From: an uncultured Flavobacteriales bacterium
GTDB taxonomy: Bacteria > Bacteroidota > Bacteroidia > Flavobacteriales_E > Vicingaceae
DNA length: 64,000 nucleotides
Assembly (NCBI GenBank): GCA_913056345.1
Contig: CAJXMH010000012.1
Location: forward strand, 1 to 64,000
Reading direction: 5' to 3'
The notes below the pieces were generated by a model. It did not search any database and was not told the origin of the DNA. It was given only the letters and a program-made list of their open reading frames with translations. A program made the position numbers and the translations under genes. This document shows, one piece after another, positions 122 to 7,555 of the stretch. How positions within the stretch are numbered: position 1 is the stretch's first letter; every line of letters begins with the position of its first letter.

Positions 122-2800
122 ATGAAAACTTATCGTAACCGCCTACTTTTTATTTTTCTTTGCTTCATTATTAGCAAACCTATAGGTGCTCAAAGCTGGT
201 GTCAGAAAGCTAATTATCCGGGAAGTGGAAGGGTTAAAAATTTTGGTTTCGAGATTAATGGCAGTTTATTTGTTGGCTGTGGAGGTGCCTCGGGAACAAA
301 TTTCTCTGATTTTTGGAAGTATGATGCGTTACAGGATCAGTGGACACAAGTTGCTAATTTCCCCGGGTCTCCAAGGAGAAATGGAGTCAGTTTCTCCATA
401 GGTAATTATGGTTACGCGGGTATTGGCTTTAATGGTTCTACCCAATTTAGTTCTTTTTACCGTTACGATCCTGTTAATAATAGTTGGACAGCAAGGGCTA
501 GCTATCCTGGCAATGGTTTGAGAGGTACAATGGGAGCAGTTCTAAATGGAAAGGCATATGTAGGAGGAGGGACTGATAGTAGTGTAACTCCAAATTCAGA
601 TTTATGGGAATACGATCCGGTTAGTGATAATTGGACATTGATAACAAACAATTGGCCCTTAGGAGATAGAACCGGAGGAATGGCGATAGGTATTGGCCAA
701 TATGTATATTTTGGATTTGGCCAAAACACTTCACGAGACTTTAATGATTTATGGAGGTATGATCCATCTTCCAATCAATGGACCCAGATGGCATCATTAA
801 CCAATGGGCATAGATTTCACTCTATTGTTCTAAACTTCGACAGCCTGATAATATTGGGAGGAGGAAGGAGGTTAGGAGGTGCGGTCTTGGGAGATTTTTA
901 CAGCTATAATTATAATACAAATAGCTGGGCATCTTTTCCTGCACACATAGATTCTACTCGTTGGACTGCAGTCGGACTTTCAACTGATCAATATGGGTAC
1001 GTAATTTCGGGTGTTTCAAACCGAAACACGAACGTATTGAGTGGTCATTTAGACGATACATGGGAATTGGGAAGGCTTACCAGTGATATGGATAGCGTAA
1101 AAGTTTGTGATGCTGACTCTGTTATTATTAATGCTTCGCGTAGTTCAGCTAGCTACACTTGGCAAAACGGCAGTACTAACTCCAACTTTGTAGCCAGAAG
1201 TTCAGGCTTATATTGGGTAGACATCAATCAAAATGGTTGTCTTTACACAGACTCATTTATTGTTGATCTTGCAAATATCAATCTAGATTTAGGCAATGAC
1301 ACCACACTTTGCGCCGGCAACACTTTGACCTTAGACGCTCAAAACCCCGGAGCTACTTATCTATGGCAAGATAACTCTACAGTTTCCACTTTTACCGTTA
1401 CCCAAGCCGGTCAATATTACGTAGAAGTTGATTTGAATGGCTGTATAGAAAGGGACACCATCAATGTAAATTACAATCCAAACCCAACGGTTGATTTAGG
1501 CAGCGATACCACGCTTTGCGCTGGCAACACTTTAACGCTTGATGCCCAAAATCCCGGCGCTGCATATACTTGGCAAAATAATTCCACTGCTTCAACTTTT
1601 GCCGTTACTCAAGCGGGTCAGTATTACGTAGAAGTTGATTTGAATGGTTGTTTAGGAAGTGATACTATCAACGTGAATTTCGATCCAAATCCAACCGTTG
1701 ATTTAGGCAATGACACTACCCTTTGCCAAGGCAGCAGCTTGTCTCTAGATGCTACTAATGCCGGGTCTACTTATCTGTGGCAAGATAATTCAACATCATC
1801 CAATTACACAGTCAGTCAAGCGGGACTTTATTGGGTAGAAGTGGATCTGAATGGCTGCGTGGAGCGAGATAGTATCTTGGTGACCTATCAAAACCTACCG
1901 CAAGTCAACCTAGGAGCCGACACCACGCTTTGCGATGGTAACACTTTAACCTTAGACGCAACAAATCTGGGAGCTACTTATCTATGGCAAGATAACTCCA
2001 ATACTTCCGCCATTACGGTTACTCAAGCTGGTCAATATTTTGTAGAAGTGAACTTGAATGGCTGTATAGAAAGGGACACCATCAACGTAAATTACAATCC
2101 AAGTCCAACGGTTGATCTAGGCAATGATACCACCCTTTGCCAAGGCAGCAGCCTATCCTTAGATGCTACTAATGCCGTAGCCACTTATTTATGGCAGGAC
2201 AATTCTACTGCAGCTACTTTTAATGTCAATCAAGCAGGATTGTATTGGGCAGAAGTGGACCTGAATGGTTGCGTGGAGCGAGATAGTATTAGAATTGAAT
2301 TTGATACTCTTCCTCAAATTGAGATGGTTTCTGATTCTTTATTTTGTGAAGGAGAAGGTATCTTACTAGAGCCTTTATCTTCAAGTCCCGGACCATATTT
2401 GTGGCAAGATGGTAGCCTAGAGAAAACTTATTTTGCTACTCAAGCAGGAGAGTTTTATGCCATAATTTCCAATGTATGTGGAAGTGATACAGCAAGTATT
2501 AATTTATTTGCAGAAGATTGCCAGTGCTTATTTGTTTGGCCTAATGTTATCACCCCAAATGGCGATCGTATTAACGATGATTTTCTGCCTTTAAGTGCTT
2601 GTCCTTACGAGAGTTTTAGATTGTTGATTTTTAATCGGTGGGGAGAAAAAGTATTTGAATCTGAATCAGCCGGCATAGGTTGGGACGGCAGAAGTCAAGG
2701 ATACCAATCCCACGAAGGAGTTTATATTTATCGTTTTGAATATAGGAATGTCGGAACAGAATCAAAGGTAGAAGTAGGACATTTTACCCTAATTCGATAG
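122..2800 (+). CDS. Secreted Kelch-repeat, Ig-like-repeat protein with a CHU_C (T9SS type B) C-terminal domain
   Basis: This is a predicted exported surface protein of 892 aa. An N-terminal signal peptide ends near residue 24 (GAQS). Residues about 28-320 hold Kelch-type blades, seen as recurring FWKYDALQDQW- and LWEYDPVSDNW-like motifs. Residues about 322-800 are tandem Ig/PKD-like modules built on DLGNDTTLC...NGC, each with two conserved cysteines; the period is exactly 207 bp (69 aa) between starts at 1286, 1493, 1700, 1907, 2114 and 2321. The last 95 residues (VWPNVITPNGDRINDDF, then FNRWGEKVFES, GWDGR, GVYIYRF) are the gliding-motility-associated C-terminal domain that directs type IX secretion. 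A role in adhesion or as part of a surface layer is inferred from architecture only. The 3' end overlaps the convergent lipoprotein gene by 12 bp. Confidence 0.9.
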   Translation: MKTYRNRLLFIFLCFIISKPIGAQSWCQKANYPGSGRVKNFGFEINGSLFVGCGGASGTNFSDFWKYDALQDQWTQVANFPGSPRRNGVSFSIGNYGYAGIGFNGSTQFSSFYRYDPVNNSWTARASYPGNGLRGTMGAVLNGKAYVGGGTDSSVTPNSDLWEYDPVSDNWTLITNNWPLGDRTGGMAIGIGQYVYFGFGQNTSRDFNDLWRYDPSSNQWTQMASLTNGHRFHSIVLNFDSLIILGGGRRLGGAVLGDFYSYNYNTNSWASFPAHIDSTRWTAVGLSTDQYGYVISGVSNRNTNVLSGHLDDTWELGRLTSDMDSVKVCDADSVIINASRSSASYTWQNGSTNSNFVARSSGLYWVDINQNGCLYTDSFIVDLANINLDLGNDTTLCAGNTLTLDAQNPGATYLWQDNSTVSTFTVTQAGQYYVEVDLNGCIERDTINVNYNPNPTVDLGSDTTLCAGNTLTLDAQNPGAAYTWQNNSTASTFAVTQAGQYYVEVDLNGCLGSDTINVNFDPNPTVDLGNDTTLCQGSSLSLDATNAGSTYLWQDNSTSSNYTVSQAGLYWVEVDLNGCVERDSILVTYQNLPQVNLGADTTLCDGNTLTLDATNLGATYLWQDNSNTSAITVTQAGQYFVEVNLNGCIERDTINVNYNPSPTVDLGNDTTLCQGSSLSLDATNAVATYLWQDNSTAATFNVNQAGLYWAEVDLNGCVERDSIRIEFDTLPQIEMVSDSLFCEGEGILLEPLSSSPGPYLWQDGSLEKTYFATQAGEFYAIISNVCGSDTASINLFAEDCQCLFVWPNVITPNGDRINDDFLPLSACPYESFRLLIFNRWGEKVFESESAGIGWDGRSQGYQSHEGVYIYRFEYRNVGTESKVEVGHFTLIR
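1082..2525 (+). repeat. Tandem 207-bp intragenic repeats encoding Ig-like modules
   Basis: Five well-conserved units begin at 1286, 1493, 1700, 1907 and 2114, always 207 bp apart. A diverged unit precedes them (about 1082) and another follows (2321). Two unit types are visible: type a (CAGNTLTLDAQN or CDGNTLTLDATN) and type b (CQGSSLSLDATN), in the order a-a-b-a-b. Identity is high at the DNA level as well as the protein level, so the array is probably prone to recombination. Confidence 0.9.
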
Positions 2801-3532
2801 TGTTCTAACTTCGATGCTTTCCAATTTAATATTAGATAACTCCTCAAGCTTATTTTCTTGGTGTAATCGAGCAAGTGAAACTAAAGGAACATCTGACTTC
2901 GTGGGTTTGTAATTAACATAATCCACAAAGCGAATTCCTTGAACAAAGCGCTCATTGTAAGCTCTACGAAAACGCATGCCGCCGCCATTTACCTGAAAAG
3001 AGTAAGCGAGGTAATCCAAGCTGTAATCTTCTACATCAAACCAATAGATAAACTCATCTTGAAAGTCTTCACCACCACCTTCTTCTTTAAAACCGACTTG
3101 TATTTTATAGTATGCCTTTCCCTCAATTTTCTCTTTTCCTAGGTTTTCTTTAATTACCGCAGGGTCATTTAATTTATAAGGCAGCAAGGCAAAGTAAATC
3201 ACTGAATTGATAGATTCCATATATTTAAAAGCCATGCTATCAGCCACAGCTACTTTTGCACCATTTATTTTTCTCTGAAAGCCTTTTGGCAAATACACGT
3301 CTTGCACTAAAAGACTGCTGTCTTGATAAGTGCGACTCATTTTCCATTCCCCCTTTTTACGACTGACTTCGTAATGCTTGTCTCGAAAAGAAAAAGAAAT
3401 GTGCAACTGATTGAATCTATCCCCGCCGGCATACTCTATCGCTTGGGTTACAATCTGTTCAGCGCTTTGCTGATTTTGACAGGAGTAGAAGGGAAACGTT
3501 AGAAGAAAAAGGTAAAGGAAAATCTGCTTCAT
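2789..3532 (-). CDS. DUF6503 family lipoprotein
   Basis: A 247-aa protein with a lipoprotein signal ending at Cys18 (FPFYSC), so it is probably anchored in the periplasm or outer membrane. The body, with motifs such as YAGGDRF near the start and a beta-rich centre (FIYWFDVEDYSLDYLAY), resembles the DUF6503 family of Bacteroidota lipoproteins, whose function I do not know. The start codon overlaps the stop of the upstream S9-fusion gene as ATGA (3529-3532), so the two are probably translationally coupled. The lipoprotein may therefore act with the peptidase in the same compartment. The 3' end overlaps the convergent surface-protein gene. Confidence 0.7.
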   Translation of the reverse strand: MKQIFLYLFLLTFPFYSCQNQQSAEQIVTQAIEYAGGDRFNQLHISFSFRDKHYEVSRKKGEWKMSRTYQDSSLLVQDVYLPKGFQRKINGAKVAVADSMAFKYMESINSVIYFALLPYKLNDPAVIKENLGKEKIEGKAYYKIQVGFKEEGGGEDFQDEFIYWFDVEDYSLDYLAYSFQVNGGGMRFRRAYNERFVQGIRFVDYVNYKPTKSDVPLVSLARLHQENKLEELSNIKLESIEVRTLSN

Positions 3533-6500
3533 GGTTGATCTAGTTTTTCTAGAAAATCTTGTTTTAATAAATCAAAGATCAAAGCATATTTATAAGCCAA
3601 TTGTTCCAAACCGGCAAACCTGCCTGAGCTTCCGCCATGGCCGGAAGAGAGATCAGTTTTGAGTAAAATCAAGTTGTCATCTGTTTTATTAGCTCTCAGC
3701 TTAGCTACCATTTTTGCCGGTTCCCAATAGCCCACTCTTTGGTCGTTAATGCCGGTAAAAAACAACATGTTCGGATAATCTTGTGCTTTTACATTTTCAT
3801 ACGGACTGTACGACCTGATGTAATCAAAGTACTTCTTATCAGCCGGGTTTCCCCATTCTAAATATTCGCCTGTAGTAAGCGGTAATTCCTCATCCATCAT
3901 AGTATTAAGTACATCTACAAATGGAACATTTAAAATGATAGTGTGATACAAATCGGGACGCATATTGGCTACCGCACCCATTAATAAACCGCCGGCACTT
4001 CCGCCTGAAGCGACAATGTTGCCTTTTACTGCATAACCTTTGTCAATTAAGTATTCGGTGCAGTCTATAAAGTCAGTAAAGGTGTTTTTCTTTTTCAATA
4101 GTTTTCCATCTTCATACCATTTAAGACCTAATTCACCGCCTCCTCTCACATGGGCAATGGCAACAATGAATCCTCGGTGAATTAAACTGTAAAGCGTTGA
4201 GTTAAATCCAACTCCTGAACTTGACCCGTAAGACCCATAAGCAGTTAAATAGGTGCGTTTTAATTCATTTTTGTTGTTCTTTAAATATTTGCGGTATAAA
4301 ATAGTAATGGGAATTTCTTCTCCATCACGAGCCTTAGCAAATACTCTTCTTTGTTTTATCCATTTAGAAGCACGAAAGTTTTTTACCGTATCCTGACGAA
4401 CTTTTCGCTTTTCAAGAGTTGAGAGATTCATGCGATAAATGGTGGAAGGTGTTTTCATGCTCTCGTAGCCAAAAGTGAGTGAGTCAGTTTCTTTTTTGTC
4501 GTTGTAGGCTAAGTAAACAGAAAAGACGTCCTCGTCAAATTTAACTGCTTCAATTTCTTGAGTCTCGCGGTTCATAATCAAAAGCTTTTCTTCCATCTTA
4601 TCGCTTTCAATAAAAACTATATGCTTGGGGAAAGGCAAAAAGCTTTGTAGAATCCCATCTTTTTTCGGTTTGTAGAATGGCTTCCATTTTTTTGCCCGAC
4701 AGTCTGCTATTTTGCAGACCCTCAATTCAAAATCTTCGCGGTAATAGTTGCTTAAAACATAAAACTGATCTCCTTCATCATAAAGCCCATATTGTACATT
4801 TTTCTTTCGAGGCTCTACCAGTTTAAAAACTAATGAGTCCGTATGGGTGGGTAAAAAGTAAACTTCATTTCCTTCTTTTCCATCCGAGCTTAGGAAAATA
4901 AATTTTTTACTTCGCGACTTTGAGATACCAAGACTATAACGCAAATCAGCCTCTTCAAAGATCAGCTGATCCTCTTTTTGATTTTGGTAAAGCTTATGAT
5001 GTTTGATCTGGTAAGTACGGTTAGTTTTCTTTTCTTGAACGGTATACAGAAAGCTGCTGTCAGTTAACCAAACCATGTCGGACACTTGCAAAAGGCTATC
5101 GTCGAGAATTTTATTTTTCTTAATTCTTTTGAATTTAAGCAAATATTGATCGCTGCCCGTGGTATTTTCATAAAAGGCAATAATGTCTTGGCTAGGGTTG
5201 GGACTTAAGCCGCCTAGACTAAAATAAGGTTGATCTTCTGCCAATTTGTTCACATCAAAAAGGACTTCCCATTCTTTATCATCTTTTTTCTTTCTTCTGT
5301 AAATCGGGTATTGTTGGTCTTCTAGATACTGGGTAGAATAGTAATAGTCTTCAAGCCGTACTGGCATTGATTCATAAGTTTGGTCAATTCGACTCAACAT
5401 TTCTTTGTACAGGTTTCGCTGACTTTCGCGTAGTGGAATAAAATAGTTTTCACTGTAGGCATTTTCAGCTTTTAGATAGTTCATCACAGCCTGATTCGCT
5501 TTTGGGTTTTTTGTGTCTTTTAACCAAGCGTAGGGGTCAGTTAAAGTGTAACCGTGAATAGAAGTAGTTTGCGGAATCTGCTTAGCGATGGGCGGTTGCA
5601 AGCTTTCATCTCGAATGTGTTTGAGATGAAATTGCGCTTCCAAAGCGGTATCTTTCGAGATACTTTCAACCAAGCTATCCGGTACTTTTGACCAAGGCTT
5701 TTCTTCGTGATAGTTGTGCCAAAAGGTAGAATCATATTCAAGCGGATAATCAAATAGTTGATTGGAATTCAAATTGCCAAAAGCATCAACTCTTTTGATC
5801 TGAGGCTCTATTTGGTATTCAAAGTCGGTTAAATAGAATTCAGAGGTAGCCAAAAATGGAATTACTTCTTGCTTTAAAGTGTCTTCATAGAGAAATTCAT
5901 CTTCATGTTTTAAGTAAGTGGGAATGTATTTGCCACCTCTTTCTTCATAATCAATACTGACCTTAAAATCAAAATGATTAATGGTCATGGGATTGCAGGT
6001 GCACAAGAGGGGTTTAAAGTTTTTGGGTACCCAATATTCTAGGTGAACTACCGCAAAATTGTCTTTCTTTACCCAGATTTCTCCTTCCAGATTTTTCTTA
6101 TCCTTTATTTTTCGCCAAAGTTTTCTAGCTTGCTTAAACTTATTGTCTTTCAGTAGTTTGCGATAGTGTAATACTTCTGAAGTGTCTAGTTTGCTCGTAA
6201 ACTTCAACTGATAAAGCCATCCATATTCAGGAATGTTTATTTCCTTCAAGGCATACTTATAATTGTCTAGGCTTTTTTTGGCAAGGAAAGTAGATTTATA
6301 TTTTAACTCATCTTTGGTGAAAATGCCAAGTGGTCCGGCCTCAATGTTCGCTTTCACATCACTTACTCCATTATCCACGCTGGCACGACTGTTTACTATA
6401 ACTGCTCTTTCTTCTTTCAAGCTTTTGTCATGAAAATGATAGCGATGAAGTCGTTCACAACCCGACCTTCCCGTGCTTAGCGAACGTAAGTCAAAACTCT

Positions 6501-7041
6501 TTTCTTTGTAATAATCTTTCCAACGGTATTTCTTTTTTTGATAGCCACTTAATTCTAGCTTCACCGCAGCATCTGAGTAGCGGACAAACTCCCCTTTTTC
6601 TCTAAGTGATTCTCGGTAGTAGCCTTCCAAGCCATAATGCTCATCTGGGTAATTGTCTTCTAGATTTCTATGGATTTTTTTGAGTAAGGATTTCACTGTT
6701 TCCACTTTGGTAGGTTTTACTTCCACCATTTTTATTTTAACAGCTGTAGGTTCTAAGTGAATGCCTTCTTTCATTGCTTGTACTTCCGAAGCCTTTAATT
6801 TCTTTACCTGATACCCTAAAAATGAAAAGAGTAAAGAAGAATCAAGCTGGCTTTTTGAAATGCTAAAGCTAAATTTACCCTCTTCGTTGCTTACCGTAGC
6901 TACACCAATTGATCGCCCTACCACATAGGCAAAGGGGAGAGGGTCACCAATCTCGTCGTATATAGTATTTTCAATGCGAACGTTTTGTGCTGTTAAAGCA
7001 ATTGAGAGAACAACACTTAGGAAGAATAGAGCAGCTTTCAT
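3529..7041 (-). CDS. Carboxypeptidase-regulatory-like domain fused to an S9A oligopeptidase B-type peptidase
   Basis: A 1170-aa exported protein. After a signal peptide (residues 1-18, ending LTAQ), residues about 20-100 form a CarboxypepD_reg-like beta sandwich (NTIYDEIGDPLPFAYV, NEEGKFSFSIS). Residues about 100-480 resemble the long partner region found in Bacteroidota proteins with that domain. From about residue 490 a complete prolyl-oligopeptidase-family enzyme follows: the DPYAWLKD entry motif at 502-509, a beta-propeller, then the alpha/beta-hydrolase domain with RGGGELG, nucleophile Ser1015 (GGSAGG), Asp1100 (INDQR) and His1135 (SGHGG). Both parts normally occur as separate proteins, so this looks like a true fusion; no stop or frameshift is visible in the join. 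Oligopeptidase B family members cut short peptides after basic residues; that specificity is not shown here. Confidence 0.85.
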   Translation of the reverse strand: MKAALFFLSVVLSIALTAQNVRIENTIYDEIGDPLPFAYVVGRSIGVATVSNEEGKFSFSISKSQLDSSLLFSFLGYQVKKLKASEVQAMKEGIHLEPTAVKIKMVEVKPTKVETVKSLLKKIHRNLEDNYPDEHYGLEGYYRESLREKGEFVRYSDAAVKLELSGYQKKKYRWKDYYKEKSFDLRSLSTGRSGCERLHRYHFHDKSLKEERAVIVNSRASVDNGVSDVKANIEAGPLGIFTKDELKYKSTFLAKKSLDNYKYALKEINIPEYGWLYQLKFTSKLDTSEVLHYRKLLKDNKFKQARKLWRKIKDKKNLEGEIWVKKDNFAVVHLEYWVPKNFKPLLCTCNPMTINHFDFKVSIDYEERGGKYIPTYLKHEDEFLYEDTLKQEVIPFLATSEFYLTDFEYQIEPQIKRVDAFGNLNSNQLFDYPLEYDSTFWHNYHEEKPWSKVPDSLVESISKDTALEAQFHLKHIRDESLQPPIAKQIPQTTSIHGYTLTDPYAWLKDTKNPKANQAVMNYLKAENAYSENYFIPLRESQRNLYKEMLSRIDQTYESMPVRLEDYYYSTQYLEDQQYPIYRRKKKDDKEWEVLFDVNKLAEDQPYFSLGGLSPNPSQDIIAFYENTTGSDQYLLKFKRIKKNKILDDSLLQVSDMVWLTDSSFLYTVQEKKTNRTYQIKHHKLYQNQKEDQLIFEEADLRYSLGISKSRSKKFIFLSSDGKEGNEVYFLPTHTDSLVFKLVEPRKKNVQYGLYDEGDQFYVLSNYYREDFELRVCKIADCRAKKWKPFYKPKKDGILQSFLPFPKHIVFIESDKMEEKLLIMNRETQEIEAVKFDEDVFSVYLAYNDKKETDSLTFGYESMKTPSTIYRMNLSTLEKRKVRQDTVKNFRASKWIKQRRVFAKARDGEEIPITILYRKYLKNNKNELKRTYLTAYGSYGSSSGVGFNSTLYSLIHRGFIVAIAHVRGGGELGLKWYEDGKLLKKKNTFTDFIDCTEYLIDKGYAVKGNIVASGGSAGGLLMGAVANMRPDLYHTIILNVPFVDVLNTMMDEELPLTTGEYLEWGNPADKKYFDYIRSYSPYENVKAQDYPNMLFFTGINDQRVGYWEPAKMVAKLRANKTDDNLILLKTDLSSGHGGSSGRFAGLEQLAYKYALIFDLLKQDFLEKLDQP

Positions 7042-7555
7042 CTGCTAAAAATAAATAAAAAATCCCCTGCCAAACGACAGAGAGAATTCAAGAACTGAAT
7101 GAAGCAAGTGCTTTATTTTTGAACTACAACTCTTTGACTTAGTTACTGCTATACTTCCTAAATACCTAAGTTTTTGCATTTTCCTATATGGGAATTAGTT
7201 GAATCTCAACCACAAAGTTCACCATTAGGCTCAAAGAACACAAAGACTTAATCCTTAGAGAACTTAACGAAGCCTTAGCGTCTTTGGCGGTTAAAATAAA
7301 GCCTACAATTGTGATGTTTTAATATTCAGGTTTTTCTGTAAGTAGATTAGGTGAAATTCAATCACAAAGTTCACCATTAGACTCAAAGAACACAAAGACT
7401 TAATCCTTAGAGAACTTAGCGGATTCTTAGCGTTCTTAGCGGTTAAAGTAAAGCCTACAATTGTGATTTTTCAAGATTTTAGGTGTTTCTGTGCAGAACC
7501 ATAAAAAATCCCCTGACAAACAACAGAGGATTTTCAAATGAAACAAATGAATTAA
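7042..7555. repeat. Non-coding region with a duplicated palindromic repeat
   Basis: About 510 bp without a gene. A block of about 115 bp at 7200-7318 recurs at 7349-7467 with roughly 85-90% identity by eye; both copies contain CACAAAGTTCACCATTAG and AGCCTACAATTGTGAT. Each block is itself a long imperfect inverted repeat: the left AACCACAAAG faces the right CTTTGGCGGTT, and CATTAGGCTCAAAG faces AAGCCTTAG. A third pair, AATCCCCTG at 7061 and 7506, brackets the duplication. Repeats with this CACAAAG/CTTTG style occur widely in environmental Bacteroidota genomes, as far as I recall. No transposase is present. Confidence 0.75.
7504..7534 (-). terminator. Terminator of the fad operon
   Basis: On the - strand the sequence forms a stem of AAAATCC/GGATTTT plus CTG/CAG with one mismatch and a loop of about 8 nt, followed by a T-run. 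It lies 22 bp past the fadE stop. A weaker, decayed look-alike sits at 7058-7090. Confidence 0.65.

Follow-up and report, generated by a model that had tools for sequence, protein, structure and literature searches.

The stretch of DNA analysed here (64,000 nucleotides, referred to as the window) carries a gene in which two proteins that are usually apart are truly fused, an exported CarboxypepD_reg / LolA-like module, the second name being given by fold, and an oligopeptidase B (OpB). The 1170 residues lie in one ATG-to-TGA frame running from 7041 to 3529 on the minus strand with no internal stop, and the claim of a single intact frame is thus borne out. In Pfam the protein matches CarbopepD_reg_2 at residues 26-106, Peptidase_S9_N at 484-883 (E 8e-77, 259 bits against a curated cut-off of 24) and Peptidase_S9 at 946-1160 (E 6e-61, 206 bits against a cut-off of 22.6), and the same search leaves residues 107-483 without any match. 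The Pfam domains, together with the fused relatives found in other genomes, confirm the original prediction that two usually separate proteins have been joined. The parts of the gene are as follows.

3529..7041, minus strand: fused gene, exported CarboxypepD_reg / LolA-like module plus OpB, 1170 aa
6988..7041, minus strand: signal peptide, residues 1-18, identified by inspection, with a predicted signal peptidase I site between LTA and Q19
6724..6966, minus strand: CarboxypepD_reg-like domain, residues 26-106 (Pfam PF13715, profile, Foldseek)
5806..6705, minus strand: putative LolA/LolB-like half-barrel domain, residues ~113-412 (AlphaFold model and Foldseek)
5629..5733, minus strand: helical tail that closes the partner at its C-terminus, residues 437-471, last residues LEAQF (tail of free partners)
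5593..5628, minus strand: link of ~12 residues (472-483), the join of the two proteins
4393..5592, minus strand: N-terminal segment and beta-propeller of OpB (Peptidase_S9_N), residues 484-883 (Pfam)
5149..5151, minus strand: Asp631, propeller side of the TbOpB-like closing pair (SpOpB R151 / TbOpB E172 position; alignment)
3562..4206, minus strand: catalytic alpha/beta-hydrolase domain of OpB (Peptidase_S9), residues 946-1160 (Pfam, structure search, superposition)
3997..3999, minus strand: catalytic Ser1015 in GGSAGG (aligned with the triad)
3865..3867, minus strand: Glu1059, equivalent to SpOpB Glu576, P1 Arg/Lys recognition (alignment)
3742..3744, minus strand: catalytic Asp1100 (aligned with the triad)
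3736..3738, minus strand: Arg1102, catalytic side of the closing pair (SpOpB Q619 / TbOpB R650 position; alignment)
3637..3639, minus strand: catalytic His1135 (aligned with the triad)

The N-terminal half begins with a signal peptide whose cleavage is predicted between Ala18 and Gln19, which agrees with the export signal claimed earlier. An A/S-Q site occurs at residues 18-25 in all 12 N-fused proteins that were read, as expected from the Bacteroidetes Q-rule, according to which Gln follows the signal peptidase I site (PMC5837995). The first domain matches PF13715 with E 4e-7 at 30.5 bits, slightly under the curated cut-off of 32.2, and the same family is detected at E<=0.5 in all 17 aligned fused and free-standing relatives, the best value being 1e-18. 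It resembles the N-terminal extension of SusC both by profile (E 9e-7) and by fold (Foldseek 9hfj, E 3.5e-5, TMt 0.78).

For residues 107-480, profile searches of Pfam, NCBIfam and the PDB find no family. An AlphaFold model of residues 20-483, built with six sequences (pLDDT 69.7), suggests a second domain of the LolA/LolB type: Foldseek retrieves 3buu, 9tp6 and 9tpm with E 1e-6 to 2e-6 and prob 1.00, at a TMt of just 0.35-0.40 and with a query model of pLDDT ~70. The best fold matches of residues 107-430 are Porphyromonas gingivalis LolA3 (9tp6) and LolB (9tpm), and the neighbours in general are lipid- or acyl-binding half-barrels (LolA, LolB, ApoB, vitellogenin, RseB). No match to LolA or LolB was obtained from the sequence of this domain in profile searches or Pfam; it is therefore called LolA-like by fold alone, and the window protein is not filed as a LolA/LolB member, having no detected sequence similarity to the LolA and LolB of Bacteroidota.

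Many genomes of the class encode free-standing proteins of ~400-450 aa that carry these two domains, likewise in this order, over the full length. Three such proteins (L045, L054, L055) end in FWxxY...L(E)xxxPLxxQF, a tail shared with the fused proteins, in which LExQF at residues 467-471 is conserved and is followed by ~12 residues and then OpB. The free proteins stop where the window protein runs on into OpB, and their identity to it is just 18-25%. Since free partners end in the motif that precedes the join, the fusion joins two complete proteins, and the N-terminal half is a whole stand-alone Bacteroidota protein. What this adds to the original prediction is that the stretch of ~370 aa behind the first domain is probably LolA/LolB-like in fold and that the partner is a complete known stand-alone family. 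The join itself had been expected at 5560-5600; it does exist, and is placed slightly 5' of that, at 5593-5628.

The best solved relative of the catalytic half is Serratia OpB (SpOpB, 7ywp), found over residues 482-1158 by a sequence search against solved structures. In a model of the full-length fused protein (pLDDT 76.9), the OpB half superimposes on the closed Serratia enzyme with a TM of 0.95 and an rmsd of 1.9 A. Ser1015, Asp1100 and His1135 fall on the catalytic triad in the alignment, where they never vary, so the triad is complete, as had been noticed from the sequence. The equivalent of Glu576 is kept in all 13 N-fused sequences that cover the site. The window enzyme shares with SpOpB both Pfam domains, the triad, the P1 Glu576 position and the fold; it differs from SpOpB in an added exported N-terminal half of 480 residues, in the absence of the R333-D460 contact and in Leu1061 at the position of Glu578, where most OpBs have Asp or Glu. 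The NCBIfam model PRK10115 (oligopeptidase B equivalog) gives 561.5 bits, below its curated cut-off of 1313, and the protein is therefore filed as an S9A OpB-type enzyme outside that equivalog.

Two kinds of residue pair close bacterial OpBs over the triad, E/D-R in TbOpB-like and R-Q in SpOpB-like enzymes, and only small substrates are admitted (PMC9917282). Asp631 and Arg1102 of the window enzyme form a D-R pair in common with the group of Trypanosoma brucei TbOpB (4bp9), unlike most Bacteroidota OpBs, which are of the R-Q type. The pair is R-Q in 78 and E-R in 13 of 94 free OpBs, and D-R in eight and N-N in one of the nine core fused sequences covering both sites; these counts, and those for the contact below, come from sets of related sequences and are thus not independent. 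The R333-D460 contact of SpOpB appears as R-D or R-E in 81 of the 94 free OpBs and is kept in none of 14 fused sequences (it is K-D in G381); the window residues at the two positions are S813 and G943. The core fused enzymes thus have a D-R closing pair of the TbOpB type and, for the most part, no R333-D460 contact, which is new here. Four divergent fused proteins have neither closing pair, and their activity may be changed.

The same domain order was found at no fewer than 13 further loci, so that 14 or more genomes share it when the window is counted. Among 100 related genomes, the search revealed four full-length fused relatives at 43-46% identity (G036, G033, G044 and G040), a further one cut by a contig end and carrying one stop (G026), and a divergent set at 29-31% identity (G027, G012, G037, G043). 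In 46 genomes of the order, the fused form occurs in 10 and a free OpB in five (one of them a fragment), G043 having both; the other 32 gave no match at E 1e-80. Contigs of the cultured Cryomorpha ignava QSSC 1-22, the vent MAG HyVt-532 and a Flammeovirgaceae MAG also carry the fused form, and G381, from another family, has one more fused gene and has retained a free OpB. Of 395 genomes sampled evenly across the class, 160 contain an OpB-type match, and the N-fused form occurs in three (G000, G012, G381). The N-fused form is rare and patchy and is firmly established. In some genomes, frames of 850-960 aa around OpB looked like upward extensions of the frame and not like fusions (L025 and L026 were examined).

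When trees are built from the catalytic domain, a single branch sets the N-fused sequences apart from all others, requiring one change. The SH-aLRT support of this branch is 84 with 13 rows and 89 with 14 rows, and reaches 99 for the 10-member core. This fits one old fusion event, as far as the trees can tell; a clade that includes the divergent four is not proven because those four sit at the midpoint root. The fused gene can also be lost, as follows from the sister genome G011, which keeps only a decayed 3' remnant, new here, that matches residues 1044-1166 in two frames at 59-68% identity (L145:2927-3297). The remnant lies between an rlmF-like methyltransferase and an SPFH protein, with neighbours as in G026, G033 and G036.

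OpB was also found joined to a CarboxypepD_reg domain in the opposite order. A 1516-aa frame in G093 contains a signal peptide, OpB at 31-703, CarboxypepD_reg at 711-792 and DUF5686 at 807-1485 (E 9e-221). The layout is repeated in G129 and G342, the frames being 1516-1518 aa long, and in G321 the frame is cut by the contig end. The three uncut genes are located as follows.

L143:1134-5684: OpB + CarboxypepD_reg + DUF5686 fusion of G093
L164:2401-6951: OpB + CarboxypepD_reg + DUF5686 fusion of G129
L162:841-5397: OpB + CarboxypepD_reg + DUF5686 fusion of G342

These fusions are spread over two families of the class, and their OpB domains form a tree group of their own (support 91), apart from the N-fused clade. 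On this phylogenetic evidence, the reverse-order OpB-DUF5686 fusion is an independent second event and is new here. As in the window protein, OpB and CarboxypepD_reg share one chain; in contrast to it, OpB comes first and DUF5686 last, while the window protein has no Pfam match to DUF5686 (PF18939) and no barrel. In proteins of the DUF5686 family, too, CarboxypepD_reg comes first, and the region behind it is weakly similar by profile to the partner's second domain (E 6e-6 to 8e-4); the profile of that second domain finds no match within the reverse-order fusions themselves. In G044 the fused gene is also followed, after 160 nt, by a DUF5686 gene, and a similar gene occupies the same place in G040.

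Around free OpBs, a survey of neighbourhoods detected no general operon with the partner. The survey gave partner-like matches near them in only a few cases: TonB receptors (L012, L080, L121), a CarboxypepD_reg gene right beside OpB (G043), a protein in which CarboxypepD_reg is combined with another second part (L020), and a distant DUF5686 gene (L119). In G043 a free OpB, cut by the contig end, is followed 132 nt later on the same strand by a CarboxypepD_reg protein of 590 aa (L144:1226-4542), and that genome also has the fused gene with its pre-join stop. All in all, the case that OpB and the CarboxypepD_reg / LolA-like module belong together is moderate, not strong.

The protein is most likely a periplasmic peptidase whose N-terminal module would tether it near the outer membrane or bind hydrophobic ligands. 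In its specific form, we consider on balance probable an exported two-part serine oligopeptidase for short Arg/Lys peptides that is tethered near the outer membrane by the N-terminal module. Signal peptidase I would release the fused protein into the periplasm with an N-terminal Gln; we infer this release because the cleavage signal fits the Q-rule and Pfam detects no secretion tail in the window protein. The OpB half is expected to open and close like other S9A enzymes, through D631-R1102 by analogy with TbOpB-like enzymes, and to cleave short peptides after Arg or Lys. The weakest step of the scheme is that the N-terminal module would keep the enzyme at the inner face of the outer membrane or dock it on a partner; in the DUF5686 outer-membrane family, a periplasmic module that this one resembles stands in front. 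Peptides entering through outer-membrane transporters would then be cut at the point of entry. A broader and clearly tentative idea is that OpB-type peptidases are working parts of a Bacteroidota outer-membrane device, to which the CarboxypepD_reg / LolA-like module docks them from the periplasmic side. If this is so, the module would do the docking whether free, fused in front, or at the front of DUF5686, and the arrangement would give an initial hint at what DUF5686 and the ~420-aa partner family do.

Two other readings of the N-terminal half, both of which we regard as improbable, compete with the tethered oligopeptidase. The LolA-like half could be a substrate receptor that hands acylated or hydrophobic peptides, for instance from lipoproteins, to OpB, which would make the protein a lipopeptide-processing enzyme. 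The lipid- or acyl-binding neighbours of the modelled fold would suit such a role, as would the grouping of the fused enzymes in a clade apart, in which particular sites at the domain interface have changed; however, the loops at the opening of the modelled domain are of low confidence, and an enzyme that takes only small substrates (PMC9917282) hardly favours it. Equally doubtful is a passive fusion, in which an OpB gene landed behind that of an exported protein and the partner merely gives a signal peptide. The original prediction took the fusion to export a family more often found in the cytosol or as a separate secreted enzyme, and the idea that it moves an otherwise cytosolic family outside is not supported: free-standing OpB genes of the phylum often carry a signal peptide or a lipobox, and signal peptides are predicted in 78% of Bacteroides POP homologs (PMC4522959). 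Export alone is therefore not the purpose of the fusion. The existence of exported free OpBs, which do not need the partner, speaks for a passive origin, and so do the patchiness of the fused gene, its decay in G011 and the lower conservation of the N halves among the fused proteins (~36% identity vs ~53% for the C halves). Yet 14 genomes from no fewer than two families have kept the full partner, C-terminal tail included, although identity is ~45%, and OpB and a related module were joined once more, in the reverse order.

That a sequencing or assembly error joined two neighbouring genes has a vanishingly small probability, as the single in-frame stops in G026 and G043 and the frameshift near a poly-A run in G037 are set against intact fused frames in many independent assemblies, a cultured strain among them, and the fused order at the further loci excludes a chance or assembly join. 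The lesions are isolated defects or assembly errors: an in-frame TAA in G043, a divergent relative and a MAG, that falls a few residues short of the join and is followed by no nearby ATG; a single in-frame TAA inside the N-terminal half in the MAG G026; and the frameshift in G037. Split relatives with a stop at the join, or reads showing a frameshift error there, had been named as evidence against the fusion, and for the most part neither objection holds; the relatives are fused, in independent assemblies and one isolate, and the G043 stop is the one partial counterpart. No relative with two clean adjacent genes in the same order was found among those searched.

Among open-licence papers, none was found on DUF5686, on a CarboxypepD_reg-OpB fusion or on a periplasmic OpB of Bacteroidota. 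DUF5686 is by name a domain 'of unknown function', and Pfam has no domain for the second part of the free-standing partner family. Fusions in two opposite orders tie both to a well-understood peptidase, so that a simple assay could test their role. As a natural experiment, the fused clade also bears on S9A closure, combining a TbOpB-type salt bridge with loss of a contact common in free OpBs. For annotation, it should be kept in mind that such genes may carry the peptidase label alone or the regulatory-domain label alone.

Around the fused genes, no operon or conserved neighbour points to a pathway. In the window, the fused gene is followed by this gene:

2789..3532, minus strand: DUF6503 putative lipoprotein gene (Pfam), with a 4-nt ATGA overlap at 3529-3532

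The coupling proposed for these two genes is real as far as the overlap is concerned, but the linkage is not conserved: no DUF6503 gene adjoins the other fused genes, and the one in G026 is on a different contig. DUF6503 was accordingly dropped as a functional partner. Nor is there support for the impression that DUF6503 and the second domain of the partner are both LolA-like, a profile comparison giving just 0.8-3.6% probability. Further along, at 122-2800 of the window, lies what we take by eye to be a kelch-like protein of 892 aa in which immunoglobulin-like segments are repeated and the C-terminus is of the gliding-motility type. Upstream of the fused gene, the intergenic region contains two tandem 148-nt direct repeats (7179-7326 and 7331-7478, 85% identical); with up to 3 mismatches allowed, their core pattern is found at no other place in the genome. 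This region is flanked by a 37-nt repeat (7055-7091 and 7501-7537, 84% identical), possibly a terminator-like sequence.
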